Virus record (IMG/VR): IMGVR_UViG_3300036893_000013
Coordinates: 1 to 64,000 of that record
From: a virus
Direction: 5' to 3' (one strand)
Length of the DNA: 64,000 nucleotides
Shown here one piece after another: positions 4,003 to 32,971 of the stretch (its first letter is position 1; each line of letters starts with the position of its first letter). The position numbers and the translations under genes were made by a program. The notes beneath the pieces are model-generated. The model was not told where the DNA came from. It worked only from the letters and a program-made list of their open reading frames with translations, and made no database searches.

Positions 4003-5016
4003 ATGAAAACACTTTTCAGATGTGAATTCGGTAGTCATCTTTATGGTACTAATACTCCTTCATCTGACCATGATTATAAGAGTATTCACATACCGAACGC
4101 TAGAGATATTCTTCTTCAGAGAGTAGTGGAGTCTACTGGTCATAAGGTGGTTAGATTTGAAGGAGATAAGAACACTCCAGAAGATACTGATGACGAAAGC
4201 TACTCTCTACAGAAGTACCTAAAGTTGCTGGCAGAAGGTCAGACAGTAACTATCGACATGTTATTCACTCCTAAACCTTTAATTACGAGTGTTATATGGG
4301 AAGAGATTAAATCTAATAAAGATAGACTGTTAACCAAGAAATCGGCTTCGTTTGTGGGGTATTGTCGAACCCAAGCCAATAAGTATGGTATTAAAGGAAG
4401 TCGAGTATCCGCAGCTAAAGAAGCCGTTAATTTTTTCGGAGATGCTATAATAAAACACGGACTTTTGGCTAAAGTTGGGGAGTTAGATGAGTTTCCGACA
4501 GGAGAACATGCAACTATATTTGTAAAAGAAACTACTCCCGGGCGATTCGAGACCTACTATGACTGCTGCAATCGTTTAGTAGGGTTTAAGAACACTCTTA
4601 AAGAAGCTCATAAAATATACTCCAGAATCTATGAAGAGTACGGTAAACGGGCTAAGTTAGCCGAGACCAATGAAGGGATTGACTGGAAGGCATTAAGTCA
4701 CGCAGTTAGAGTAGGTCATGAGGCGTTGTCTCTTTTGAGCACAGGAGTGGTAAGTTTTCCCTTGTTTAATGCTAAGCACGTTTTAGACATTAAATTGGGT
4801 AAACTTCCCTACAATGAAGTAGCTAAAGAAATAGAGGAACTTCTAGAAGATGTAGAAGTAGCCGAGAAGTCATCCTCGTTAAGAGAAGAACCAGATTATG
4901 AATACATAGATAATCTAGTAGAAAGGGTATATAGAAATGAAGTTCTTGAGCATCATTTTATTAGTGGTTGGGTGCCTAGTAACGTATGCAGTGTCTCTCG
5001 ATATGGAAGTCGTTAG
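4003..5016 (+). CDS. Predicted nucleotidyltransferase (Pol beta superfamily, YcgL/COG3541-like)
   Basis: The N-terminus holds the nucleotidyltransferase signature: GSHLYGTNTPSSDHDYK, meaning Gly-Ser followed about 10 residues later by Asp-x-Asp, as in the minimal Pol-beta fold. The rest is helical and matches the length of phage and bacterial COG3541 proteins. The substrate is unknown; related enzymes add nucleotides to proteins, RNA ends or antibiotics. Proximity to an RNA ligase and a tRNA makes an RNA-end role possible (inference). Its last 80 nt overlap the next gene in another frame. Confidence 0.8.
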   Translation: MKTLFRCEFGSHLYGTNTPSSDHDYKSIHIPNARDILLQRVVESTGHKVVRFEGDKNTPEDTDDESYSLQKYLKLLAEGQTVTIDMLFTPKPLITSVIWEEIKSNKDRLLTKKSASFVGYCRTQANKYGIKGSRVSAAKEAVNFFGDAIIKHGLLAKVGELDEFPTGEHATIFVKETTPGRFETYYDCCNRLVGFKNTLKEAHKIYSRIYEEYGKRAKLAETNEGIDWKALSHAVRVGHEALSLLSTGVVSFPLFNAKHVLDIKLGKLPYNEVAKEIEELLEDVEVAEKSSSLREEPDYEYIDNLVERVYRNEVLEHHFISGWVPSNVCSVSRYGSR

Positions 5017-5239
5017 TACTCAACCGGTTGTAGCAACTTCGTTTAGTAAGTTCTTTTCCTATGTAATTGATACTAAGGGAGTTGCAAAAACCTGTAGTTC
5101 GGGATATGATCTGTATTTAGCTCAGATTCCACCAGCCGGAAGAGTACCTTCAAGTTATGTATATATTAGTCCCCCGCAAATGATATATCCTCAGGATAAT
5201 AAGGATTACTTAGCAATGTGTGTACAGGTGAAACGATGA
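4937..5239 (+). CDS. Small exported protein or lipoprotein, 100 aa
   Basis: ATG at 4937 lies inside the nucleotidyltransferase gene, with AAGGG 9 nt upstream. The N-terminus is a short basic residue plus a hydrophobic core ending VVGC, resembling a lipobox with Cys13, followed by a polar domain with two more Cys. Export is likely; function is unknown. The lipobox is not perfect, so a cleaved Sec signal or membrane anchor is also possible. Confidence 0.65.
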   Translation: MKFLSIILLVVGCLVTYAVSLDMEVVSTQPVVATSFSKFFSYVIDTKGVAKTCSSGYDLYLAQIPPAGRVPSSYVYISPPQMIYPQDNKDYLAMCVQVKR

Positions 5240-5475
5240 GGTTAGGAGATTTTATAGCGTGCCTAGTTATAATAGTAGCTGCCTCGGTAGCTGCTTTTAT
5301 TGGATTGTGGTCTGTAGCTCTATTCAGTACGTTGTTCTTTGTACTGCTGATATCTAATATATTTATCCACATATTTTTTCATGTAGCGACAGACGCTTTA
5401 CCTAGATACCATATTGCTATTCCTGAAGATGTACAAGAAAAAATTAATGAGAGTTTGAAAGAGAGCTTCAAGTGA
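5236..5475 (+). CDS. Small membrane protein, 79 aa
   Basis: ATG at 5236 overlaps the upstream TGA (ATGA), which decides it over the in-frame codon at 5218. Two hydrophobic segments fill residues about 5-50, followed by an amphipathic charged C-terminus. No family is recognised. It is coupled to the exported protein upstream. Confidence 0.65.
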   Translation: MRLGDFIACLVIIVAASVAAFIGLWSVALFSTLFFVLLISNIFIHIFFHVATDALPRYHIAIPEDVQEKINESLKESFK

Positions 5476-6623
5476 GTGAGTGGAAGGTGTTCGCTGATAG
5501 AATTGAAATTTTTGACCATCCAAATGCCAGTAAACTTTCTTTAGGAAGAGTTGGGTCTTTCCAAGTTGTTGTTGGGAAAGGGCTTTACCAGACCGGAGAT
5601 ATCGTCGTATTTGCCCCCAAACGTAGCATTCTCCCTCCCGATCTAAGAACTTATTATGTTAATGAAGAGACGGGGCATAGTTATCTTAAAGGAGTTAACG
5701 AAGATTGGGTGGGAAGTATTAGACTTAGGGGGGAGGAGAGTGAAGGAGCGATTTTGCCGTGGGAGTGGATTGTTAAAGTTCGTCCAGAGTGGAAGACCTC
5801 TATTCCTATGGAAGTAGACTTATCAGGAGCGTTAGGCATCACCGAGTATATTCCCGGTGTCCCAAGTTCTCCACGCAGGAAACAGCAGCAAGGGGATGTA
5901 ATTCAGCTAGTACAGGATGCAGTTCAAATGGATCGGTTTGTTCGCCATGATGCAGAACAGTTTAGAATCTTCCAAAATGAATTCATCCCCGGAGAGTTTG
6001 TATCTGTTACCGAGAAGATACATGGTAGTCAGATATCTATCATGAAGGATAAGAGGGGTAGAATAGCTGTAACCAGTAAGGGCAGAGCACTCCAAAATTA
6101 CGTTCTTAGAGAGTTTCCCCTTACTAAACCCTTTAGCGGAAGGGGGTTATGGAATAAAATTCGGAGTACTATCCAGTGGCTTTTGAGAGTCCCCGGGCCG
6201 ATGAATGAGTACTGGAAGGTAGCTTATGACTCTGGGATTATTCAGTTCCTCAAAAAGCAGCGATTTGAAGGGCAGGAAGTACAACTTATTGGCGAAGTAA
6301 TTCCTTTCCAAAAGGGTTTCACTTACGGTTGTGACCATAAACACGTTCTAATATTTCGTGTTATAGTAGGAACTATAGAAGAACCATACGGAGCCTACAC
6401 AGAGGAGATTCTATGGGTTCCCCAGTTATACTATGGACCTTATGATCCATGGAAGATACTCCCGCTTTGTAAGGGCAAGGAGACTGTATCTGGAATGGAA
6501 GCGCACATACGGGAGGGAGTTGTACTTACCCCTGCGGTAGCTCGTAGGGCTAAGAATGGTACCCAATTAATAGTGAAGATTGTTAACCCTGCTTTCACCG
6601 TTAATGATGAGGACCCAACGTGA
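5472..6623 (+). CDS. RNA ligase, DRB0094/Rnl5 type
   Basis: The start is GTG at 5472, overlapping the preceding TGA. An N-terminal OB-like domain (residues 1-105) precedes an adenylyltransferase domain. Motif I is EKIHGS with Lys182 as the expected AMP-accepting lysine. TSKGRA follows at about 201-206, then LIGEV, EGVVL and IVKIVNP matching motifs IIIa, IV and V. This order (OB fold first) is that of Deinococcus DraRnl, which seals 3'-OH/5'-PO4 nicks in RNA-containing duplexes using ATP. A tRNA gene lies directly downstream and a second, Rnl1-type ligase is at 24.6 kb. Confidence 0.88.
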   Translation: MSEWKVFADRIEIFDHPNASKLSLGRVGSFQVVVGKGLYQTGDIVVFAPKRSILPPDLRTYYVNEETGHSYLKGVNEDWVGSIRLRGEESEGAILPWEWIVKVRPEWKTSIPMEVDLSGALGITEYIPGVPSSPRRKQQQGDVIQLVQDAVQMDRFVRHDAEQFRIFQNEFIPGEFVSVTEKIHGSQISIMKDKRGRIAVTSKGRALQNYVLREFPLTKPFSGRGLWNKIRSTIQWLLRVPGPMNEYWKVAYDSGIIQFLKKQRFEGQEVQLIGEVIPFQKGFTYGCDHKHVLIFRVIVGTIEEPYGAYTEEILWVPQLYYGPYDPWKILPLCKGKETVSGMEAHIREGVVLTPAVARRAKNGTQLIVKIVNPAFTVNDEDPT

Positions 6624-6632
6624 GATTTAGAA

Positions 6633-6715
6633 GCTCCTGTGATGGAAAGTATACATAGTAGTCTTAAGAACTACCGCCTTCGGGATTGTGGGTTCGAGTC
6701 CCACCGGGAGTACCA
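6633..6715 (+). tRNA. tRNA-Leu (UAA)
   Basis: I folded this by eye. The acceptor GCTCCTG (6633-6639) pairs with CGGGAGT including G-U pairs. The anticodon stem GTAGT/ACTAC carries loop CTTAAGA with anticodon TAA at 6665-6667. A long variable arm contains CCTTCGGG, the T arm is GTGGG-TTCGAGT-CCCAC, and CCA is encoded at 6713-6715. The long variable arm and anticodon agree on tRNA-Leu reading UUA. The D arm is short (3-bp stem, loop without a clear GG), so charging may be weak. UUA is a common codon in the surrounding genes. Confidence 0.85.
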
Positions 6716-6718
6716 ATT

Positions 6719-6910
6719 ATGAATAAAAGAATATTTAAGGACATAGAACGCGACATTGCGATAGAAGAAAGCTTCCACGACGCCGTGGAGTTTTCTGTAA
6801 AAGTGTATGACGAATTAAATGACTATCCAACCTATCTTAAGTTAAGAGACAGATACCTCAAAGCTTACGAAAGACTATCTAAATATATTCAGAAACATGC
6901 AAAGGATTAA
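6719..6910 (+). CDS. Hypothetical charged helical protein, 63 aa
   Basis: The frame is open back into the tRNA, but ATG at 6719 (MNKRIFKD) is the reasonable start. The only Shine-Dalgarno-like sequence is GGGAG at 6706-6710, inside the tRNA acceptor stem. The protein is short, helical and rich in Lys, Asp, Glu and Tyr. No family is recognised. It abuts the endolysin (stop 6910, next start 6911). Confidence 0.6.
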   Translation: MNKRIFKDIERDIAIEESFHDAVEFSVKVYDELNDYPTYLKLRDRYLKAYERLSKYIQKHAKD

Positions 6911-7348
6911 ATGAAGACAAGCATTAACGGACTAAATTTCATTAAAAGTAACGAAGGATTTAGAAGCCTTATGTACGCAGACGTAGCTGGAAAGAGCACA
7001 ATCGGGTACGGTCATTTAGTCCTACCGGGGGAAAGCTTTCCAGTATTAGGAATTACTGAGTCATACGCCGAGGGTCTACTAAGTCAGGATGTACAGCATG
7101 TTGAGATTTATCTCAATGCTGCTGCCCCAACACTGAATCAGAACCAATTTGATGCTCTTATTGACTTTGGGTTCAATTTGGGGACCGGAGCACTCCATTT
7201 CCTTCTTGGGCATGGACTTACTCAAATTCCTACCCAGATTTTACTGTGGGATCACGCAGGGGGAGTGGTTGTGGAAGGTTTGTTACGGAGGCGTAAAGGG
7301 GAGCTAGCATTATGGGAGACGCCAGTTGAAAAAGTGTCCAATCTGTAA
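6911..7348 (+). CDS. Endolysin, GH24 T4-type lysozyme
   Basis: It cleaves the beta-1,4 bond between MurNAc and GlcNAc in peptidoglycan at the end of infection. The catalytic triad spacing of T4 lysozyme is kept: Glu15 (SNEGF), Asp24 (YADVAGK) and Thr30 (STIGYGH). The later NQNQFDALIDFGFNLG block is the second family signature. At 145 aa it is of usual length, with no signal peptide, so it should need a holin; none is obvious next to it. Its 3' end overlaps a small zinc-ribbon gene. Confidence 0.93.
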   Translation: MKTSINGLNFIKSNEGFRSLMYADVAGKSTIGYGHLVLPGESFPVLGITESYAEGLLSQDVQHVEIYLNAAAPTLNQNQFDALIDFGFNLGTGALHFLLGHGLTQIPTQILLWDHAGGVVVEGLLRRRKGELALWETPVEKVSNL

Positions 7349-7478
7349 CGGTAAAGGGGTTGTTAATTGGAGTAGTAAATACGCTAGCAACGACCCTAAT
7401 ACTCAATCCGGAGAGATTACAATACAAGAGATATCTATATGCATAGTGTGTCACGGTTCCGGTTCGTTTAAGGGGTAG
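7326..7478 (+). CDS. Small zinc-ribbon protein, DnaJ-like CxxCxGxG (50 aa)
   Basis: This short gene overlaps the endolysin end. The frame has CPICNGKG near the N-terminus and CIVCHGSG near the C-terminus, two CxxCxGxG repeats that would bind one zinc as in the DnaJ central domain. TTG at 7326, preceded by GGGAG 7 nt upstream, is the only plausible start because an in-frame stop lies at 7305. Role unknown; such miniature zinc ribbons may bind nucleic acid or protein. Confidence 0.6.
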   Translation: MKKCPICNGKGVVNWSSKYASNDPNTQSGEITIQEISICIVCHGSGSFKG

Positions 7479-7562
7479 ATGTATGGGCAGAAAGAAAACA
7501 AATGTAAGAAATCATGGTACGGCTAGAAGGCTTGTTCATACTGTAAATCTACGAGAATACGA

Positions 7563-7769
7563 ATGTCTTTAGATAGAATAGATAATTCTAAAGGGCATAC
7601 AATGGACAATGTTCTTCCTGCTTGCTTAAGATGTAATTTTATGAGAGCAGATATCCCCTATGTTGTTTGGGTTAAGTTTATTCCGGCCCTACAAGAGGCA
7701 GAAAGGAACGGGGATTTCGGAGATTGGTTTCCTAAGTCTGCTGTTAAAAAATTTCTTAAGGAAGATTAA
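7563..7769 (+). CDS. HNH-type zinc-binding endonuclease fragment, possibly frameshifted
   Basis: LDRIDNSKGHTMDNVLPACLRCN is the core of small phage HNH proteins (His-Asn catalytic region plus CxxC). The same frame is open upstream to 7527 and reads CSYC before the ATG at 7563, supplying the first zinc pair, but it has no start codon there. A second frame from ATG 7483 to 7572 reads MGRKKTNVRNHGTARR, a plausible N-terminus that stops early. The two pieces look like one HNH protein of roughly 95 aa split by a frameshift near 7524. As it stands, only a partial protein is made. Confidence 0.55.
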   Translation: MSLDRIDNSKGHTMDNVLPACLRCNFMRADIPYVVWVKFIPALQEAERNGDFGDWFPKSAVKKFLKED

Positions 7770-15630: not shown

Positions 15631-16758
15631 ATGGCAATGAGCTATTTATATAAAAATCCAAAAGGCTTTGAGGTTCGTGCCCACAGTCACTCCGGAGGGC
15701 AAGACTGGTCGTGCCCAAAAAAATATTACTGGAAGCGTCTTCAAGGCTGGCAGAGTAAAGAAGAAGGTGCTCCTCAGATGTTCGGGAAATGCACCGAAGC
15801 CGCGATTAAGTACTTCCACGAGAGGAACTTCGAACCCGGTACCGGGGTAGAAGAGTTTAGAAAACTTTGGTGGGATTATAAAAATGAAGACATTCTCTAC
15901 ACCGAAAAGTCAGGAAACTGGAATGATTTCTTTCGATGCGGTGTTGAGCTTCTGAAGCTATATGAACTTCAACTACCCGACTTGCCTATCTCTAATGCCG
16001 TGTTCTCTGTAGAACGTAGGGTAGACCTAGCCCCCGGGGATGGATTATACGGCGGGTTACAATTCATGGCAGTACTAGATATGCTATGCACGGCTCCTAA
16101 TAATCATCCAGCCCTTCCTGCAATGGAAGGTCCTGAAGTAAGACAGTTCGTAGTCGATATCAAAACCTCTACGGCTAGCTATTACACTGATCCTAGGTTG
16201 TCCTCATTAGACGATCAGCTAAGAGACTATGCTTGGGTTACGGGGTTGTCCACTGTCGCCTTTCTAGTGCTTTGTAAGAACCATACCGAGATAGGTACCG
16301 GGGACTGGATAACAGTTTTAGAGGGTCCGAAGCAGGGCAAGAAGTACAAAGTATTCGATATCAAAGATGGTAAGCTGTTAGTATTACCCAAAGAACTGTT
16401 CGATGAATACCAGTCACGTAAGAAGGAGATCAAAGGTAAAGGGGCTAAGGAAAGAGGAACAGCCTTACTTACCGAATACTTCTATAAGGGTCTTTCTTTT
16501 CAACGGCATGAAGTAACTAAACAGAAGATACAATTCCTTCCTGCTATAATTAGTCAGCAAGATGCAGACGAGGCTAAGCGAGAGGCTATACATGAAGCAA
16601 TGGACATCGCGGACCATAACCGTGAGCAGTATTTTCCTAAGCGTCCCGGTGTACGGTTTCCTCATAATCCTTGCACTTCTTGTGAGTGCTTGGGTCTCTG
16701 TATCGGAGATGAAGGAATGGTTAAGGAGAACTTGGTTCAGATAGGAGCGCAGTTTTGA
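15631..16758 (+). CDS. PD-(D/E)XK nuclease with Fe-S cysteines (Cas4/AddB-like)
   Basis: The frame is open from 15529, but ATG at 15631 (or 15637), just after GGAAGG, begins right behind the helicase stop. The nuclease core shows MAVLDML and FVVDIKTS, giving the Asp and Asp-x-Lys of the PD-(D/E)XK site. Four cysteines, one near the N-terminus (DWSCPKKYYW) and three at the C-terminus (CTSCECLGLC), fit the split Fe-S cluster of Cas4 and AddB nucleases. About 375 aa. Likely recombination or end-resection exonuclease. Confidence 0.85.
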   Translation: MAMSYLYKNPKGFEVRAHSHSGGQDWSCPKKYYWKRLQGWQSKEEGAPQMFGKCTEAAIKYFHERNFEPGTGVEEFRKLWWDYKNEDILYTEKSGNWNDFFRCGVELLKLYELQLPDLPISNAVFSVERRVDLAPGDGLYGGLQFMAVLDMLCTAPNNHPALPAMEGPEVRQFVVDIKTSTASYYTDPRLSSLDDQLRDYAWVTGLSTVAFLVLCKNHTEIGTGDWITVLEGPKQGKKYKVFDIKDGKLLVLPKELFDEYQSRKKEIKGKGAKERGTALLTEYFYKGLSFQRHEVTKQKIQFLPAIISQQDADEAKREAIHEAMDIADHNREQYFPKRPGVRFPHNPCTSCECLGLCIGDEGMVKENLVQIGAQF

Positions 16759-17423
16759 AGATATTAATTATTAGTGACACTCACGGCCTCCATAGATTAG
16801 TACCTGAACTCCCCGAAGCGGATGTTTTTATACATGCGGGGGATATAGCTAACAGCGGAAGAATACAAGAGGAATATATTTCTTTTAACACTTGGTTAGA
16901 AGGAATCCCCGTTCCTAAGCATCGAAGATTTATTTGCGCGGGAAACCACGACGTATGGCTAGATGGTTCTCATAATGAAAGCAGCCCGAAAAGGGCGGCT
17001 AAAACAAGGGCATTGATCACTAATGGGATATACGTGGAAAACGAAGCAAGAGAAGTAGACGGAGTTATTTTCTATTTCTCCCCAGTAACCCCGTTCTTTC
17101 TTAACTGGGGTTTTAACGTACAGAGAGGCGCAGACATAAAGAAATACTGGGACAAGATTCCAGATAATACAGATGTGTTAGTTACTCATGGACCACCGTA
17201 TGGTATACTAGATAAAATTGTACCTGAAAGTTCTTTTCTTAACTTAGGATGTGAAGAGTTAGAAAAACGGGTTCGGCAAATACAACCTAAGTACCATATT
17301 TTCGGGCACATACATGGAAGTAGAGGGACTTTTACGGAATCTACAACTTATATCAATGCTTCTTTTCTAAATGAAGAGTATAAACCCCATTCCGGAGACG
17401 GATATTTTATAGTGGAGATATAA
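16755..17423 (+). CDS. Metallophosphoesterase
   Basis: TTG start overlapping the nuclease stop. The calcineurin-like signatures are in order: SDTHG, HAGDIANSG, CAGNHDVW, THGPPYG and GHIHGSRG. These bind two metal ions to hydrolyse phosphomonoesters or diesters. Substrate unknown. At 222 aa it is a single-domain protein close to bacterial ser/thr phosphatase or nucleotide phosphodiesterase homologues. Confidence 0.9.
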   Translation: MKILIISDTHGLHRLVPELPEADVFIHAGDIANSGRIQEEYISFNTWLEGIPVPKHRRFICAGNHDVWLDGSHNESSPKRAAKTRALITNGIYVENEAREVDGVIFYFSPVTPFFLNWGFNVQRGADIKKYWDKIPDNTDVLVTHGPPYGILDKIVPESSFLNLGCEELEKRVRQIQPKYHIFGHIHGSRGTFTESTTYINASFLNEEYKPHSGDGYFIVEI

Positions 17424-23151: not shown

Positions 23152-23671
23152 GTGCATGATCTTAATCCAAGCTTGGAGAAGTCGTAAATCCAAGGAGGAC
23201 ATAGAGTGGCCAGATTCTAGGGACCCTGAACTTAAAGAAACGTTGGTAGAGTTCGGGGTAGTTCCTCAAGACCTAGAGAAAAGCATGGTGGTGTTGGCTG
23301 TATGGAGAGAAGCTGGGGAGGATATTTATCAGAAGTACAGTGTGATTACTAACGTAATTAAAAACCGGCAGGCTAAGGGATTGTACCGAAGTCATCTTTG
23401 TGCTTCAGACCTAGATCAATTTCCGTCTATGACCAACTCAGGTGATCACAGACTTAAAAAATATCCACTTGAAACTGAGAACCTTAAGAAGCTGTTAGAA
23501 AATCTAGACAACATTCTGGAGGGTAAGACGGTGGACCTGACTCAGGGGGCTACTTACTTTGGAGTAGTGGGAGAAGTGATGGACCTTTGGTTTAGAAATT
23601 TGATTGAATCAGGTGGCTATGAAAGAACTGTTCAAGTGGCAGGTCTCACGTTTTTCCGGGAGAAGAAATGA
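23129..23671 (+). CDS. Putative SleB-like cell-wall hydrolase, 180 aa
   Basis: ATG at 23129 is the first codon fitting the protein start. The pattern WREAGEDIYQKYSVITNVIKN matches the N-terminal Glu-containing helix of SleB/CwlJ (Hydrolase_2) peptidoglycan hydrolases. QGATYF and the closing VAGLTFFR resemble the rest of that fold. Divergence is clear, so this is a structural resemblance by eye. If right, it is a second lysis-type enzyme besides the GH24 endolysin. It has no signal peptide. Confidence 0.5.
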   Translation: MDFKTLNKCMILIQAWRSRKSKEDIEWPDSRDPELKETLVEFGVVPQDLEKSMVVLAVWREAGEDIYQKYSVITNVIKNRQAKGLYRSHLCASDLDQFPSMTNSGDHRLKKYPLETENLKKLLENLDNILEGKTVDLTQGATYFGVVGEVMDLWFRNLIESGGYERTVQVAGLTFFREKK

Positions 23672-24561
23672 AAATTCACATGATGGCGGGTCTCCCCGCC
23701 TCCGGGAAGTCTACTGTGGCAAGAAAGATAGTCAAGCAAAACGGCAATGCCGCACGGGTTAACAGGGATGACCTTAGAGCAATGCTCTTTAACTCTGAGT
23801 GGTCTGGTAAAAGAGAGAAGGTAGTTATTGCGGTGGAGAAAGCAATAGCTAAAGTTCTGCTAGACTACAACTTAGATGCTATAATTGATGACACCAATCT
23901 TTCAGAAAAACACGAAGATATGTGGGCTAATTTAGCTGCTGATTTGGGTGTTCCTTTTAAGAAAGAATTCTTAAACGTAGATATGGAAGAGTGTATTCGA
24001 AGAGATGCTAATAGGGATAAACCTGTAGGTAGAAACGTCATTGTAAAGATGGCTGCTAAGAATGGATTAATACAGTGGCCGGATAAGGGTATTGTGCTTG
24101 TAGATATTGACGGCACCCTATCTCTATCCACGGGGAGGGAAAAGTATTTAGCGAGAGAAGTAAAAGACTGGCAAACTTATTTTAGTCTTTTGCATACAGA
24201 TGTTCCGGCTATTAATATTTTTAAGAGAGTAAAGGAACTTAGTGACTCCGGACATACAATTGTAATAGTATCAGGAAGAGGAGCCGAGTGGGAAGATGAT
24301 ACCCTAAAGTGGTTTGATAATGTATGGACTCCTAGCCCGTTTTTTCCGGAACTGGAAGTTCCTAAGTTTCCTATCTTTCAGTTCTTCTTCCGTAATGCCG
24401 GGGATCATAGACCGGATGAAATTATTAAACGCGAAGTACTGGACCTTCTACCCCGAAAGCCAGCATTGGTAATCGATGACCGTCCTAAAGTTTGCCGTAT
24501 GTGGGAAGAACAAGGATTAAATGTATATTGGGCTAGAGGAAGAGATATAGAGGAATTTTAA
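23668..24561 (+). CDS. pseT: Polynucleotide kinase / 3'-phosphatase (T4 PseT-like)
   Basis: The kinase domain has Walker A GLPASGKST (8-16) and an NRDDLR lid/active-site region; the C-terminal HAD phosphatase has VDIDGT with Asp146 and Asp148. This T4 Pnkp order (kinase then phosphatase) heals RNA ends by removing 2',3'-cyclic or 3' phosphate and adding a 5' phosphate. It overlaps the Rnl1-type ligase gene by one base, so healing and sealing are co-translated. T4 uses the pair to repair tRNA cut by host anticodon nucleases. Confidence 0.93.
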   Translation: MKIHMMAGLPASGKSTVARKIVKQNGNAARVNRDDLRAMLFNSEWSGKREKVVIAVEKAIAKVLLDYNLDAIIDDTNLSEKHEDMWANLAADLGVPFKKEFLNVDMEECIRRDANRDKPVGRNVIVKMAAKNGLIQWPDKGIVLVDIDGTLSLSTGREKYLAREVKDWQTYFSLLHTDVPAINIFKRVKELSDSGHTIVIVSGRGAEWEDDTLKWFDNVWTPSPFFPELEVPKFPIFQFFFRNAGDHRPDEIIKREVLDLLPRKPALVIDDRPKVCRMWEEQGLNVYWARGRDIEEF

Positions 24562-25688
24562 TGAAACTCCAAGAGTGGATTGATATAAGAGAGCTAGAGG
24601 AGTTAATCTCCGAGGGGTTAGTATCTGACAGACCCCATCCTTCTTTGCCTCTGCGAATTTTGAATTATACCCCGGCTGCTCAATCGGTTAAGGTCTGGAC
24701 TCCTACCCTTAGCCGGTGCCGGGGATTGGTTTATGAACTAGATACTAATGATATTTATGCAATACCTTTTTCTAAGTTCTGGAATTTTGGAGATTTAGCG
24801 CACGGCGCAGTTAAAGAAAACTTTCCTCCGGGAGAACCCGCTATTTATGAAAAGGTGGACGGGAGTTTAGGTATATTCTTTTTCTACAAGGGAGCGCCTA
24901 TTATTGCAACTCGGGGAAGCTTTGAGTCAGATCAGGCTAAGTGGGCGGATAATTGGCGCAAGAAGCATATGTTTGGCTGCCCCCTACACGATGACAGGAC
25001 GTATTTATTTGAAATAGTTTATCCCGAGGACAAGAAAGTAGTTAACTATCCTTATTCAGGATTAGTTTTGCTAGGAGCAATAGACCCCAACGGGGACGAA
25101 TGGCCTCCGGACTCTATAGTTGCTCAAACGGTCCTCAATTATTTTCCAGTAAAGATTGCTAAGAGATACGAATACCAAGAGCTAGAGAAACTTCAAGCCC
25201 AAGAGGAAGATAACGCCGAAGGATGGGTGGCAGTGTGGTATGGTCCTCCGGCATACAGAGTTAAGATCAAGTTGGAGAAGTATGTTCTTCTACACCGTAT
25301 GTACTTCCAGACTACTTCGGAAGTTGTGTGGGAATTGGTTAAAGCCGGGGAGTTTAAGGAAGTTAATTCTGTTCACAGGCTATTTGAAGGAGCAGACGAT
25401 ACTCTCAAAAAATGGGTAATGAATACCGCTGTGAATATATCTTTGAATTATGTAGATATAGATCAAAGAGCTAAACTTGACTTTAGAAACTGTATCGACT
25501 ATACTAACATTACCAGCTACGACGGTAATGAGAAGGAGCGAAGAAAGGCATTTGCCTTCTTAGCTACAAAGAAGGATAATCCGTCTTTGCTGTTCCTGCT
25601 TTATGACGGAGATTTTGTTAAGTACGAAGAGATGTTATGGAAGCTAGTTAAACCAGAAAATAAAAGATTTACGAAGGAGGAAGAATGA
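24561..25688 (+). CDS. rnlA: RNA ligase 1 (T4 Rnl1-like)
   Basis: Motif I is EKVDGSLG with Lys98 as the expected adenylated residue. RGLVYEL before it, FEIVYPE (motif IIIa) and GWVAVWY...RVKIKLEKY (motifs IV and V) follow in the right order. The length (375 aa) and the C-terminal helical domain match T4 Rnl1, which specifically seals broken anticodon loops. It is directly downstream of the kinase/phosphatase. Confidence 0.93.
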   Translation: MKLQEWIDIRELEELISEGLVSDRPHPSLPLRILNYTPAAQSVKVWTPTLSRCRGLVYELDTNDIYAIPFSKFWNFGDLAHGAVKENFPPGEPAIYEKVDGSLGIFFFYKGAPIIATRGSFESDQAKWADNWRKKHMFGCPLHDDRTYLFEIVYPEDKKVVNYPYSGLVLLGAIDPNGDEWPPDSIVAQTVLNYFPVKIAKRYEYQELEKLQAQEEDNAEGWVAVWYGPPAYRVKIKLEKYVLLHRMYFQTTSEVVWELVKAGEFKEVNSVHRLFEGADDTLKKWVMNTAVNISLNYVDIDQRAKLDFRNCIDYTNITSYDGNEKERRKAFAFLATKKDNPSLLFLLYDGDFVKYEEMLWKLVKPENKRFTKEEE

Positions 25689-26574: not shown

Positions 26575-26726
26575 GGACATATACAGTAGGAATAGAAGTG
26601 GATGATTATTCTGATTCAGATGGAGAAGATGTGGAAGAGTTTCTCCAACAATTGCTTGATGGGGAATTACCAGAAGGCTTACCCCCTGATATGAAGGCAC
26701 GAATTATAGAGGTTACAGAGTGGTGA
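26571..26726 (+). CDS. Small acidic protein, 51 aa
   Basis: ATG at 26571 overlaps the endonuclease VII stop (ATGA) and its stop overlaps the next start. It is very acidic (DDYSDSDGEDVEE), which could mimic DNA or bind a basic partner. No family is recognised and the role is speculative. Confidence 0.58.
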   Translation: MRTYTVGIEVDDYSDSDGEDVEEFLQQLLDGELPEGLPPDMKARIIEVTEW

Positions 26727-27850
26727 AAATAAATAGAGAAGAAGAACAGGAGATTGTCGAATTTAAGCGAAGACACCCTGAGTTAGGAAGTAGGGCTATA
26801 GGTACTCACTTTAACCGCCATCATAAATCCGTTAATAGAGTTCTCAATACTTACAAGAAACCTACGGTACTTAACACCGATCCTATTGATATGGATACCC
26901 TTCGTAGGCTGCTAAAGAAGGGTCCGTTATCTTCACTACAGTTAGCAGATGCCCTTAAGACTACTCCGAAGCACGTAGAGGAGCAGATTAAAATCCTAAA
27001 GCAAAAGGGTGCTCTGCTGTTGGTAACCCATAATGGATTACATGACTTGGGGGATAGTATTCTGTTAGAACCCGGAAAGAGTAAGCTTAAGGGAACAGAA
27101 GAATACTGGACTCATACCTTAGGTTTTACTACGGACAACCATCTTTGTAATAAACACGCTAGATTGGATGTTCTTAATGCTGCGTATGATCATTTTGAGC
27201 GAGAGGGTATTACCAAAGCTTATAATGCCGGAAACATGATCGATGGCGAGGCTAGGTTCAACAAAACTGAATTAATCGTAGCTCCGGGGATGGATAACCA
27301 GTTAGACTACTTAATAGATAAGTACCCTAATAAGAAAGACATAACAACTTACTACATATCAGGAGATGATCACGAAGGTTGGTATCAGCAAAGAGAGGGT
27401 ATCGAAGTAGGACATTATCTCCAGATGAGAGCAGAGCAAGCGGGAAGAGACGACCTTAAGTACTTGGGGTACGGAGAAGCAGACGTAGACTTGTTATATG
27501 GCTCTGGGTCTTCTGTTATGAGAGTAGTTCACCCGGGTGGGGGATCAAGTTATGCAATTTCCTATACTGATCAGAAGAGAGTAGAGAGCTACCAAGGGGG
27601 AGAGAAACCGCATGTTGAGCTAGTAGGACACTACCACAAGTTCAACCACGGATACCCTAGGGAAGTCCACACAGTCCAAGGTGGATGTACTATGGATCAG
27701 AGTATGTTCATGAGAAAGAAGAGGTTGCAGGCCCACGTAGGGTATAGTATAATCAAAATCAAGCAAGACGAGACAGGAGTAATTATTCGGTTCTCCGTCG
27801 AATGGTTTCCTTTCTTTGATCGCGGGTTTTATGAGAAGAGGTTTAAATAA
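26720..27850 (+). CDS. HTH domain fused to metallophosphoesterase-like domain
   Basis: GTG start (26720 or the next codon). Residues 1-50 read like a helix-turn-helix (RRHPELGSRAIGTHFNRHHKSVNRV), and about 55-110 like a winged helix. The C-terminal 240 residues have GDDHEGW and GHYHKFNHG, consistent with the last metal-binding blocks of calcineurin-like phosphoesterases; an N-terminal metal site is less clear (TTDNH and NAGNMIDG). It may be a sequence-specific DNA phosphodiesterase. It directly precedes another phosphoesterase. Confidence 0.65.
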   Translation: MVKINREEEQEIVEFKRRHPELGSRAIGTHFNRHHKSVNRVLNTYKKPTVLNTDPIDMDTLRRLLKKGPLSSLQLADALKTTPKHVEEQIKILKQKGALLLVTHNGLHDLGDSILLEPGKSKLKGTEEYWTHTLGFTTDNHLCNKHARLDVLNAAYDHFEREGITKAYNAGNMIDGEARFNKTELIVAPGMDNQLDYLIDKYPNKKDITTYYISGDDHEGWYQQREGIEVGHYLQMRAEQAGRDDLKYLGYGEADVDLLYGSGSSVMRVVHPGGGSSYAISYTDQKRVESYQGGEKPHVELVGHYHKFNHGYPREVHTVQGGCTMDQSMFMRKKRLQAHVGYSIIKIKQDETGVIIRFSVEWFPFFDRGFYEKRFK

Positions 27851-28371
27851 TGGATACATGGGTTGTTTCAGACCACCATTTCTATCATGAGAATATACTT
27901 CGTTTTACCGGATACGATGGTAAACCTCTTCGGGTGTTTAGTGATGGTTCTGAAATGAATGAGTATATGATTACTAAACATAACTCTGTGGTTAAGTTTG
28001 ACGATAAAGTGTATTTCTTAGGCGACGTTGTTATGGGAGCTAACGCAGAGAAGATGAAGATAGTTTCTAGACTCAACGGTAAAAAGACCCTTATTCTGGG
28101 TAATCACGATTCCCCCGAGATGAGCTTGTATAGAGCTTTCGGACGCATATATGCTTATAGAAAACTCGATTATTTGCTGCTAACCCACGTACCGGTTCTG
28201 CGCCTCCCTAAATGGGCTAAAGCCAATGTACACGGTCATGTTCATAATAACATTTCGCCGGGAGAGTATGGACCATTATACTACAACGTTAGTATAGAAG
28301 TGCTAGAGGATTACACCCCGATACACTTAGATGAGCTAAACAGAAGAATTGAGTTACAAGGAGGAGTATGA
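27850..28371 (+). CDS. Metallophosphoesterase
   Basis: The five blocks are SDHHFYHENI, LGDVV, LGNHDS, LTHVP and VHGHVHNN. This is the small phage/bacterial phosphoesterase type that opens with D-x-H-F-x-H. It overlaps the previous gene by one base. The substrate is unknown; candidates include cyclic nucleotides and RNA 2',3'-cyclic ends. Confidence 0.9.
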   Translation: MDTWVVSDHHFYHENILRFTGYDGKPLRVFSDGSEMNEYMITKHNSVVKFDDKVYFLGDVVMGANAEKMKIVSRLNGKKTLILGNHDSPEMSLYRAFGRIYAYRKLDYLLLTHVPVLRLPKWAKANVHGHVHNNISPGEYGPLYYNVSIEVLEDYTPIHLDELNRRIELQGGV

Positions 28372-28903: not shown

Positions 28904-29267
28904 AATCATAGCCTACTGGCAACCGAAACTCAGATTAGATAATTGGAAGTTTTCTTTTAAAATCCATGATGATGTTAAGGATATAGAATGCTTTGCGCTC
29001 AATAAACAGGACCCTAACTACGAAATAGCTACTATTGAGGTTTTGGACCCAAGTAAAATTCCAGAATCGTGGAAAGGATGTAGGGATATAGAAGTAACTA
29101 TACTGCATGAGTTGCTTCATACTAGACTTCTATATGTAGCTCCCCTTCCGGAAAAGAAAAAAGAAAAGGGAAAAAAAGCTAACTGGCAGGTAGAGATGGC
29201 GGTAGAAACTATCAGTCGGGCAATGGTGGCCGCAAAAAGGGGCATAGAGCCAGAGGATATTAAATGA
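28857..29267 (+). CDS. HExxH metallopeptidase-like protein, 136 aa
   Basis: Residues around 80-90 read ILHELLHTRL, a zincin HExxH motif, and a Glu in EMAVETISRAM about 37 residues later could be the third ligand, as in gluzincin-like phage proteins. It overlaps DUF3310 by 47 nt. There is no signal peptide, so an intracellular target is expected. It may be a non-catalytic zinc protein. Confidence 0.7.
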   Translation: MGKRKALPPLAQQIFEIIAYWQPKLRLDNWKFSFKIHDDVKDIECFALNKQDPNYEIATIEVLDPSKIPESWKGCRDIEVTILHELLHTRLLYVAPLPEKKKEKGKKANWQVEMAVETISRAMVAAKRGIEPEDIK

Positions 29268-32200
29268 AAGAGTGGAGTAATTTGGCCCGTGTGGTTTACA
29301 GACGGACCTATAGCCGTAAAGACACTGGGTATTTAGAGAACTGGGATCAAACAGTCGAACGAACAATTGCTGGAAATGTGAAAGGAAAGAATGTACCTGA
29401 AGAAGAAATTAAAGAACTTATTAGGTTGGCTAAAGAACGAAAATCCGGTCCCGCAGGCAGAGGGTACTGGTTCTCAGGAGCACCCAGCCACGCTAAGATC
29501 GGAGGAGCAGCCCTCAACAACTGCTTTTCTGGCGACGAAAAGTTTATAACAAAAGCTGGACCTGTGTCTTTTAGAGAAGCAGTTGGTCTAGAAGTAACAG
29601 TAAAAACAAAATATGGATGGAAAAAAGGAGTTGTTAATAGCTTCGGAAATCAGATCGTTCAGGATGTTGTGTTTGCCCCGGCTGACTCCACGGGAAAGCG
29701 GTATAGGAGTAACCTTCGTCGCAGAGTTCGCGTAACTCCAGATCACGGCTGGTTCTTATTAAATGGAGAAAAAACTACCTCTCTAGAAGTTGGGGACATT
29801 GTACAGTCTGGAAGAGGTCATCAATATCCATTAGATAAAGGAACAGCCTATTATGCCGGATTTCAGCATGGATTAATTTTCGGAGACGGTACTGAAGCAA
29901 ACCACAAGAAAGATGGCTCCTATCGGTTTATGATTAGGCTGTGCGACGATAGAACAAAGAAGTATGCAGATATGTTTGAGGATGTTACTTATCCAGAAAC
30001 ATATGGAGGGGACCCGGTAGGAAGACTAGATTCTTATGAAAACTTAAAGGAGTTTCCTGTTGCTAAGTCTGTAGAATATTTAGCTGGCTTTTTACACGGT
30101 TGGTTAGAAGCAGATGGTAATTACTCCAAGAATACGGCAAGACTTAGTTCACAGAATCCAGAAACTAAACAGTGGCTTTTAGATAATGCTGCTTCTGCCG
30201 GATATATTCTTACTGGTTTCTCGTACAACAATGAAACAACTAACTACGGAAAAAGACATAACCCTCTTATTACGTATACTCTAAGTCAAGAGGAAATTAC
30301 TTGGAAGGTACAAAGCATTGAGATTCTACCAGATGTTGAAGAAGTTTTTTGTGTCACTGTTCCAGAAACAGGAGCCTTTACGCTTGCCTCAGGAATCTAT
30401 ACCTCAAACTGCTGGTTCCTCACCGCAGACGACTGGTACAGCTTCGTCATCGCACAGGACTTACTCATGCTTGGAGGCGGGGTTGGTCTGTCAGTGGAAC
30501 ATCGATTTACGAGTAAACTACCAAAGGTCCGGAGAGACGTTTTCATTCAACATAGAAATACCCGAGACGCAGACTACATTGTACCTGATAGCAGAGAAGG
30601 TTGGAACGAACTCTTACACCGTGTCCTCGAAAGTTATTTCGTTTCAGGGAAGTCGTTTACGTTCAGCACGGTATGTCTACGAGGTAGTGGAGAGATTATC
30701 AAAGGATTTGGGGGGATCAGTTCAGGCCCACTCCCGTTGGTTGATTTCATCCGAACTCTCTCTGGAGTCTTTAAAGCGAGAGAAGGAAAGTTCCTCAGAC
30801 CAATCGACGCCGCAGACATAATCACCGCTACGGGTCAAATGGTCGTGAGTGGAAATGTCCGCAGATCGGCAATTATTATCTTGGGCGATTGCTGGGATAA
30901 AGAGTATTTGAAAGCAAAGCGCTGGGACTTGGGGCAGATTCCTTCCCACCGTAGTAGAGCAAATTATTCAGTAGTGTGTGATGATGTAGAGGACCTTCAT
31001 CCCTCCTTCTGGAAAACTTATGAACAAGGAGAACCTTTTGGAATCGTCAATCGTACGAACATACAGCGTTACGGCAGAATGGGTGAACTTAGACCGGATA
31101 CAGCTATCGGCGTTAATCCGTGTGTACCGGGGCACACAGAAATCTTAACCAAGAATGGCTACCAAAGAATTGACTCATTAATCGATCAAGAAGTGGAGGT
31201 TTGGAATGGTTTTGAGTTCTCCAAAGTAAGACCCAGAAAAACGGGTATTAATCAACCCTTGGTAAAAGTAAAGCTTTCATCGGGACAAGAATTGGATTGT
31301 ACTCCCTACCATCAGTTTGTTCTTGCGTTGGACTACAAAGGAAATACTATAAGAGTAGAAGCTAAAGACCTGAAAAAAGGAGATAAACTAATTAAAAGTT
31401 CGTACCCACTTCTAGAAGGATTTATGCCACTGGGTACGGCATATACTCAGGGTTTTGTCTCTGCGGAAGGTATGGACGGGTATAAGCACTTTAATTTGTA
31501 CGAGCCAAAACTTCCATGTCTAGAAAATTTATCCGTAACCCACGGAGAGTATGACAGCAAGCAAAGCCGACTGCATTGTACTCTGACTTTTGAACCAAAG
31601 GAGAAAACCTTCGTTCCTTTTGAGATGTATACTATATCTGTACGGCTTGCATGGCTATCTGGACTGCTAGATGGAGATGGTACTTGTCTAAAAGAGGGGG
31701 GAAGCCAAATAGCCTCTGTGAATAAAGAGTTTCTTCTCAGAGTGCAGAAAATGTTGACAACACTGGGTATAGCTAGTAAAGTAACATTAGCTAGACAAGA
31801 ATGCTTTAGGTTTCTTCCGGACGGAAAAGGTGGAAAAAAACAATACCTTTGCCAAACTCTTTGGAGATTGCTACTTGGAGCAGTTGAAATGGGGCAACTG
31901 TTAGAACTAGGTTTGAAAACATACCGACTGGATTTTAATGGCTTCTATCCTAATCGCAATGCTTCTCAGTTTGTTAAGGTAGTGGAAGTGGTAGATGAAG
32001 GATTTAGTTCTGACGTTTTCTGTTTCACAGAGCCTAAACGCAATCTTGGATGTTTCGAAGGGATTGTCACCGGGCAATGTGCGGAGGCAACTCTCGAAAA
32101 CGGGGAACCTTGTAATCTTACCGAAACCGCCCTTTGTAACCTCGACGGAAGTGATGAATTTATTAAAGCAGTGCGACTTATGCAACGATACGCAAAAAGA

Positions 32201-32971
32201 GTAACCCTTGAAAGATATCATCACAAAATCTCCGACGAAGTTATTAAAAGAAATCGCCGCACAGGTAATGGAATCACTGGCTGTTTGGCAAGTCCGCTTT
32301 TTACTCCCGAAACATTGGACCGTGCGTATGCAGCGATCCAAGATGAGGATGAAAAATACTCAAAAGAATTAGGTGTTCCTCGCAGTAAACGAACCACCGT
32401 GGTCAAACCCTCCGGAACAATGAGTAAGGTTCTAGACTGTATGGGATATGAAGGAATCCATGCGGCGTATTCTCGGTATATGATTCAGCGAGTTAGGTTT
32501 GCTTCAAACGATCCTTTGATTCCTAAGCTTCGTGCGGCGGGCCATTACATGGAACTGTTGAACGACTTTGGGACCATCGACCGTGGTACAATGGTAGTGG
32601 ACTTCTATGTATCTGCGCCAGAAGGCTATCCTGTTGCCGACGAGGACTGGGATGTATGGAAGCAGTTAGACATTTTAAAAATGGCGCAAAAACATTGGGC
32701 TGACCAATCTGTATCAGTTACGGTATACTATAAGAGAGAAGATATACCTAAGCTAAAAGTGTGGTTAGCTGAGAATCTACAGTATTTAAAAACAATTAGC
32801 TTTTTATGTCATTCGGACCATGGGTTCCCCCAAGCTCCTAAAGAAGCTATTACACAAGAAAGGTTTGAGAAGTTATCCAACAAGATAAAACCCATCGACT
32901 TTGAAGATATCGAAGAAGGTGATATGATTGATGGGATGGAGTGCCAAGGTGGAAGCTGCCCAATTAAATAA
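29264..32971 (+). CDS. nrdJ: Ribonucleotide reductase, monomeric class II (B12-dependent), two inteins
   Basis: After removing inteins at residues 87-382 and 620-938, the exteins join to about 620 aa. They resemble Lactobacillus-type adenosylcobalamin-dependent ribonucleoside-triphosphate reductase. Marks are NNCWF (redox Cys), GGGVGLSVE, NPCAEATLENGEPCNLTE (radical Cys and partner redox Cys), VVKPSGTMS and a C-terminal shuttle CQGGSCPIK. It reduces NTPs to dNTPs for phage DNA synthesis and needs host cobalamin. It overlaps the peptidase-like gene by 4 nt. It is somewhat shorter than the 739-aa Lactobacillus enzyme. Confidence 0.92.
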   Translation: MKEWSNLARVVYRRTYSRKDTGYLENWDQTVERTIAGNVKGKNVPEEEIKELIRLAKERKSGPAGRGYWFSGAPSHAKIGGAALNNCFSGDEKFITKAGPVSFREAVGLEVTVKTKYGWKKGVVNSFGNQIVQDVVFAPADSTGKRYRSNLRRRVRVTPDHGWFLLNGEKTTSLEVGDIVQSGRGHQYPLDKGTAYYAGFQHGLIFGDGTEANHKKDGSYRFMIRLCDDRTKKYADMFEDVTYPETYGGDPVGRLDSYENLKEFPVAKSVEYLAGFLHGWLEADGNYSKNTARLSSQNPETKQWLLDNAASAGYILTGFSYNNETTNYGKRHNPLITYTLSQEEITWKVQSIEILPDVEEVFCVTVPETGAFTLASGIYTSNCWFLTADDWYSFVIAQDLLMLGGGVGLSVEHRFTSKLPKVRRDVFIQHRNTRDADYIVPDSREGWNELLHRVLESYFVSGKSFTFSTVCLRGSGEIIKGFGGISSGPLPLVDFIRTLSGVFKAREGKFLRPIDAADIITATGQMVVSGNVRRSAIIILGDCWDKEYLKAKRWDLGQIPSHRSRANYSVVCDDVEDLHPSFWKTYEQGEPFGIVNRTNIQRYGRMGELRPDTAIGVNPCVPGHTEILTKNGYQRIDSLIDQEVEVWNGFEFSKVRPRKTGINQPLVKVKLSSGQELDCTPYHQFVLALDYKGNTIRVEAKDLKKGDKLIKSSYPLLEGFMPLGTAYTQGFVSAEGMDGYKHFNLYEPKLPCLENLSVTHGEYDSKQSRLHCTLTFEPKEKTFVPFEMYTISVRLAWLSGLLDGDGTCLKEGGSQIASVNKEFLLRVQKMLTTLGIASKVTLARQECFRFLPDGKGGKKQYLCQTLWRLLLGAVEMGQLLELGLKTYRLDFNGFYPNRNASQFVKVVEVVDEGFSSDVFCFTEPKRNLGCFEGIVTGQCAEATLENGEPCNLTETALCNLDGSDEFIKAVRLMQRYAKRVTLERYHHKISDEVIKRNRRTGNGITGCLASPLFTPETLDRAYAAIQDEDEKYSKELGVPRSKRTTVVKPSGTMSKVLDCMGYEGIHAAYSRYMIQRVRFASNDPLIPKLRAAGHYMELLNDFGTIDRGTMVVDFYVSAPEGYPVADEDWDVWKQLDILKMAQKHWADQSVSVTVYYKREDIPKLKVWLAENLQYLKTISFLCHSDHGFPQAPKEAITQERFEKLSNKIKPIDFEDIEEGDMIDGMECQGGSCPIK
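29522..30409 (+). mobile_element. RNR intein 1 (296 aa, LAGLIDADG)
   Basis: It begins CFSGDEKF and ends YTSN, just before the redox Cys of NNCWF. Two LAGLIDADG motifs (GFQHGLIFGDG and LAGFLHGWLEADG) and block B (VTPDHGWF) are visible, so both splicing and homing domains look complete. Confidence 0.9.
31121..32077 (+). mobile_element. RNR intein 2 (319 aa, LAGLIDADG, Gln-terminal)
   Basis: It begins CVPGHTEIL and ends GIVTGQ before the catalytic Cys of NPCAEA. The two LAGLIDADG-type motifs are TQGFVSAEG and LSGLLDGDG. The last residue is Gln rather than the usual Asn, and the penultimate residue is Gly rather than His. Gln-ended inteins are known to splice. Confidence 0.88.

Follow-up and report, generated by a model that had tools for sequence, protein, structure and literature searches.

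The early-gene block of this phage encodes two RNA ligases of different families, Rnl1 and Rnl5, together with a polynucleotide kinase/phosphatase (PNKP), the ligase-associated nucleotidyltransferase RlaP, and a tRNA-Leu(UAA). We consider it probable that these genes form a counter-defence RNA-repair set of the T4 kind, in which one ligase would seal breaks in loops and the other breaks in duplex RNA. The window analyzed here covers positions 1 to 64,000 of an IMG/VR virus record of 112,037 bp, and its repair genes are as follows.

4003-5016, + strand: RlaP, a ligase-associated Pol-beta-type nucleotidyltransferase (PF10127, phrog_388)
5472-6623, + strand: RNA ligase of the DRB0094/Rnl5 type, OB domain first (TIGR02306, NgrRnl profile, AlphaFold model)
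6633-6715, + strand: tRNA-Leu(UAA) with encoded CCA (ARAGORN, Rfam RF00005)
23668-24561, + strand: polynucleotide 5'-kinase/3'-phosphatase, PNKP (1ltq, PF25109, AAA_33)
24561-25688, + strand: RNA ligase of the Rnl1 type, divergent (phrog_562, T4 Rnl1 profile, predicted fold)

Families and catalytic residues of the repair genes

Profiles and a structural model firmly assign the protein at 5472-6623 to the Rnl5-type ligases, with the OB domain first. It passes the NCBIfam equivalog RNA_lig_DRB0094 (TIGR02306) with 220 bits against a cut-off of 151, and a profile built from it and ten phage relatives (A1) matches NgrRnl, the RNA ligase of Naegleria gruberi, over its full length (E 1.9e-64); the match of the same profile to T4 Rnl2 is confined to the nucleotidyltransferase half (E 8e-14). 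The AlphaFold model (pLDDT 87) finds NgrRnl in all of its top 13 PDB matches (E about 1e-18), and the full-length profile and structure matches together place an N-terminal OB domain ahead of the nucleotidyltransferase domain, with the PHA02142 OB domain (PF21189) scoring just under its cut-off. This domain order, the conserved motifs, and the fold are shared with the Rnl5 enzymes NgrRnl and DraRnl, both nick-sealing RNA ligases, but the phage protein carries insertions, and its identity to NgrRnl over the structural alignment is about 18%. Three residues are invariant across 29 homologues: K182, the motif I lysine (in KIHG) and expected adenylation site, E275, and E348, the motif IV glutamate. 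In PDB searches, the OB domain resembles the tRNA-binding OB folds of PheRS and MetRS, a weak hint from structural likeness that the Rnl5-type ligase may bind tRNA too. Single-sequence PDB searches with either ligase returned nothing useful, and profiles were required. No close relatives of the 5472 protein were found in the IMG/VR scan; a second alignment (A2) was built from IMG/VR loci, and most rows of A1 come from another collection.

The protein at 24561-25688 belongs to phrog_562 (E 3.7e-50), its family profile matches T4 Rnl1 (2c5u; E 1.3e-42), and its predicted model (pLDDT 85) has T4 Rnl1 as its top PDB matches in Foldseek. The lysine expected to be adenylated, K98 (in KVDG), is invariant in homologues. 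Because the protein reaches only 46 bits against the cut-off of 242 for the T4 RnlA equivalog (TIGR02308), we class it as a divergent member of the Rnl1 family and not as a T4 RnlA equivalog. Its gene overlaps by one base with that of PNKP, which matches T4 Pnkp (1ltq) from end to end (residues 2-288, E 3e-19) and joins, in one chain and in the T4 order, an N-terminal P-loop kinase (AAA_33; motif GLPASGKS) to a C-terminal HAD phosphatase (HAD_PNKP, PF25109; motif DIDGT).

The nucleotidyltransferase at 4003-5016 falls into the RlaP family, which is said to have been defined by Burroughs and Aravind in 2016: it passes PF10127 (E 7.6e-14, 52 bits against a cut-off of 23), matches phrog_388 (E 3.6e-85), and carries the metal-binding motif SDHD. 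It is 39-45% identical to proteins of T4-like and other phages, in the family of T4 NrdC.11. RlaP is predicted to restore nucleotides lost at broken RNA ends, and a role in adding nucleotides to broken RNA has been proposed for this family (PMC7824862).

The tRNA-Leu(UAA), which starts 9 bases past the stop codon of the Rnl5 gene, was recovered by ARAGORN and, with 47.5 bits (RF00005), was the sole find of the Rfam search. Its folding free energy is no better than that of shuffled sequences (z 0.03), a measure that is uninformative for a tRNA. TTA is the commonest leucine codon in the sampled early genes (191/746). Two further tRNAs, Asn and Pro, lie outside the window and bring the total for the record to three. 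In the tRNA-Leu, the anticodon loop (CUUAAGA) has G at position 37, where an Aeromonas phage homologue has A, the D loop is shortened and holds a single G, and the first acceptor pair is G-U. This tRNA may be resistant to anticodon nucleases or, alternatively, degenerate.

These assignments agree with the initial annotation, which had placed a nucleotidyltransferase at 4003, a DRB0094-type ligase at 5472, a tRNA-Leu(UAA) at 6633, a PNK/phosphatase at 23668, and an Rnl1-type ligase at 24561, and they specify the nucleotidyltransferase as RlaP. The absence of key lysines, which it had named as counter-evidence, is not seen; both are there, K182 in Rnl5 and K98 in Rnl1.

Arrangement in the early block and absence from a sister phage

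Positions 30-35859 of the window form a block of co-directional early genes on the + strand, followed by structural genes on the - strand. The repair genes lie in this block as two groups, RlaP-Rnl5-tRNA (4003-6715, within 2.7 kb) and PNKP-Rnl1 (23668-25688), both on the + strand and 17 kb apart. The initial annotation had put them all in one operon; the shared strand and the single early block hold, but the genes fall into two groups with many others between them. Promoter- and terminator-like sites were not above shuffle frequency, and no above-chance signal separates or joins the repair genes, so that transcription units are not readable from the sequence. A single transcription unit running from RlaP to Rnl1 is a possible but unproven reading, which we set aside.

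No near DNA relative of the phage was found in the reference collection, where the tRNA gave the sole megablast match for the first 12 kb. A 48-kb IMG/VR contig (G041) is largely colinear with positions 3.7-51.7 kb of the window, and its PolA is 65% identical. Missing from this sister phage, at three separate sites, are RlaP, Rnl5 together with the tRNA, and PNKP together with Rnl1; the flanking genes are kept, and other small genes occupy the vacant places. By a hand count of the 31 genes of at least 100 aa in window positions 3743-35859, 10 are missing from G041, and all four repair proteins are among these 10. Simple counting puts the chance of this at about 0.007, a figure that comes from one comparison and, with PNKP and Rnl1 adjacent, from effectively three sites. 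The joint absence marks the repair set as accessory, and the comparison of these two sequences suggests that it may be gained or lost together.

The record has several other features of note. Inteins and HNH/GIY-YIG-like genes occur in the early region, and the class II ribonucleotide reductase (29264-32971) contains two intein-like insertions, both missing in G041. Phosphoesterase-like genes of the early block comprise a calcineurin-like phosphoesterase at 16755-17423 (Pfam), a gene at 26720-27850, and one with a weak match only at 27850-28371; the first and the last are absent from G041. A nicotinamide phosphoribosyltransferase (NAMPT)-like gene at 349-2730, with an intein-like insertion inside, and a ribose-phosphate pyrophosphokinase-like gene at record positions 110047-110886, outside the window, flank the two ends of the record; the two might act as an NAD+ reconstitution pair of the NARP1-like type, another counter-defence function. 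The start of the record (30-299) recurs near its end (111299-112037), with the first bases appearing again at 111423 and an imperfect continuation, in a segment that surrounds a possible GIY-YIG-type ORF. The genome may be circular or terminally redundant, with an assembly seam. Also outside the window, a short 9-base tandem repeat encoding a run of KTY closes the ORF at record positions 84216-84497.

Rnl1 and Rnl5 in other phages

Among 50 Rnl5-bearing records, this phage included, Rnl1 is present in 15, RlaP in 19, and a HAD-type PNKP phosphatase in 6; all four occur together in only two, this phage and one other (G032). For comparison, 28 large RecA-bearing records contain Rnl1 in 0/28 and Rnl5 in 1/28. 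Rnl1 is thus found in 14/49 of the other Rnl5 records against 0/28 of the RecA-bearing ones (Fisher p 0.001), where the background was picked by RecA similarity with the ligases disregarded, and many of the records are fragments and non-independent through shared ancestry.

The two ligases also tend to lie close together. At 11 of the 69 non-redundant IMG/VR Rnl5 loci, an Rnl1 gene is found no more than 10 kb away, and in every case the two share a strand. One locus (L020) is a triplet of Rnl1 (4428-5591), PNKP (5531-6508), and Rnl5 (6642-7643); in two others (L054 and L080) PNKP is near both ligases, and in a fourth (L082) Rnl1, RlaP, and Rnl5 stand together. This clustering of genes gives the strongest support to the idea that both ligases serve one shared function and, with the joint absence from the sister phage, it bears out the view that the genes belong to one repair set. 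The remaining 35/50 Rnl5 records are without detectable Rnl1, which indicates that Rnl5 can work alone.

Comparison with known systems and proposed roles of the two ligases

The tRNA-repair set of T4 comprises Pnkp and Rnl1, with Rnl2, NrdC.11/RlaP, and tRNAs elsewhere in the T4 genome. The phage described here resembles it in its T4-like PNKP, its Rnl1, RlaP, and phage tRNA, and in having a second ligase from another family; PNKP and Rnl1 are encoded together, with RlaP and a tRNA in the same genome, which is the T4-type gene set. It differs from T4 in that the second ligase is Rnl5, with its OB domain first, where T4 has Rnl2, in the adjacency of the PNKP and Rnl1 genes, and in its total of only three tRNAs. 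The mending of PrrC-cut tRNA by T4 Pnk and Rnl1, the founding case of such repair, is established (cited in PMC12409363).

The same pair of ligases is carried by the Pseudomonas aeruginosa phage PAK_P2, a Pakpunavirus (Rnl1, gp148; Rnl5, gp38), and by at least 19 named Pakpunaviruses including it, counted as the phages common to both top-60 lists. In PAK_P2, NAMPT and PRPP-synthetase genes adjoin Rnl1, and the present record has the same pair at its ends; the PAK_P2 ligases are, however, far apart, its DNA has no close similarity to the window, and searches of PAK_P2 for RlaP (PF10127) and HAD_PNKP (PF25109) found neither. Jumbo phages carry several RNA ligase families per phage, described as "probably not redundant", along with RlaP and PNK (PMC7824862), but the present record, at 112 kb, is not that of a jumbo phage. 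The idea that different ligases answer different RNA breaks is already in print for jumbo phages that combine Rnl1, Rnl2, and RtcB; the paper treats Rnl1 and Rnl2 as the principal ATP-grasp families, and the term DRB0094 does not appear in it (PMC7824862). Because mixtures of RNA ligases are already known from phages, and both Rnl1 and Rnl5 occur in Pakpunaviruses that have been published, the present set is a variation on the T4 toolkit with Rnl5 in the place of Rnl2, and is not new in kind. What our analysis adds is the clustering of Rnl1 with Rnl5 in IMG/VR and the joint accessory absence in the sister phage.

For the activities of the set, their substrates, the order of the steps, and the trigger by a host nuclease, we infer the following scheme. 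The host would cut tRNA or other RNA and so stop translation, and PNKP would convert the broken ends to a 5'-phosphate and a 3'-OH, with RlaP replacing any nucleotide that had been removed. Sealing would then fall to Rnl1 where the break is in an open, single-stranded loop, and to the Rnl5-type ligase where base-pairing holds the ends, that is, at nicks in duplex RNA; the phage tRNA-Leu(UAA) would supplement or replace the tRNA for the phage's commonest leucine codon. By analogy, such a division between anticodon-loop cuts and duplex nicks, which the initial annotation had suggested, would fit the biochemistry of T4 Rnl1, which acts in the anticodon loop, and of NgrRnl and DraRnl. Counting against the repair-set reading are the 17 kb between the two groups, the score of Rnl1 under the RnlA cut-off, and the majority of Rnl5 records without Rnl1. 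A more specific proposal, that Rnl1, PNKP, Rnl5, and RlaP form a two-ligase module gained or lost as a unit across separate sites, with Rnl5 answering host nucleases that nick duplex RNA and not the anticodon loop, is one that we put forward tentatively and regard as rather unlikely.

The two ligases could alternatively be overlapping back-ups that act on the same tRNA breaks but tolerate different sequences, end chemistries, or inhibitors, with no split between loop and duplex. Their co-occurrence and clustering would suit this, as would the likeness of the Rnl5 OB domain to those of PheRS and MetRS, which leaves tRNA a possible substrate of both. We nevertheless think it unlikely, given that the enzymes come from different ligase families, one with a relative (NgrRnl) called "nick-sealing" in its PDB title and the other with T4 Rnl1, whose action in the anticodon loop is established.

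Less probable still is that one of the ligases works outside RNA repair, either Rnl1 in tail-fibre assembly, as T4 gp63, or Rnl5 in sealing RNA-DNA or DNA nicks of replication. The name of phrog_562 ("RNA ligase and tail fiber protein attachment catalyst") would allow the first, and a search of the 112-kb record that found no DNA ligase family the second. Against them, Rnl1 adjoins PNKP here, is near PNKP in other phages, and lies in the early block away from tail genes, while the matches of Rnl5 are to an equivalog and to structures of RNA ligases and not to DNA ligases, and the host DNA ligase could serve phage replication. That the genes are unrelated accessories sharing the early region by chance, as might be suggested by the inteins and HNH/GIY-YIG-like genes nearby and by the roughly one in three longer early genes that differ between the window and G041, is highly improbable in view of the fall of all four repair proteins among the absent 10/31 (chance about 0.007, from one comparison over effectively three sites) and of the independent clusters of the same families in other phages, which had already weakened this reading.

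Within this repair set, what most merits following is the recurrent cluster of two ligases. If the labour really is split between the ligases, one could tell from their presence which kinds of RNA-cutting defence a phage meets, among them cutters of paired RNA, which have not yet been tied to any repair enzyme. The Rnl1-PNKP-Rnl5 neighbourhood, together with the Pakpunaviruses in culture that have both enzymes, makes the question of what each ligase does testable now.
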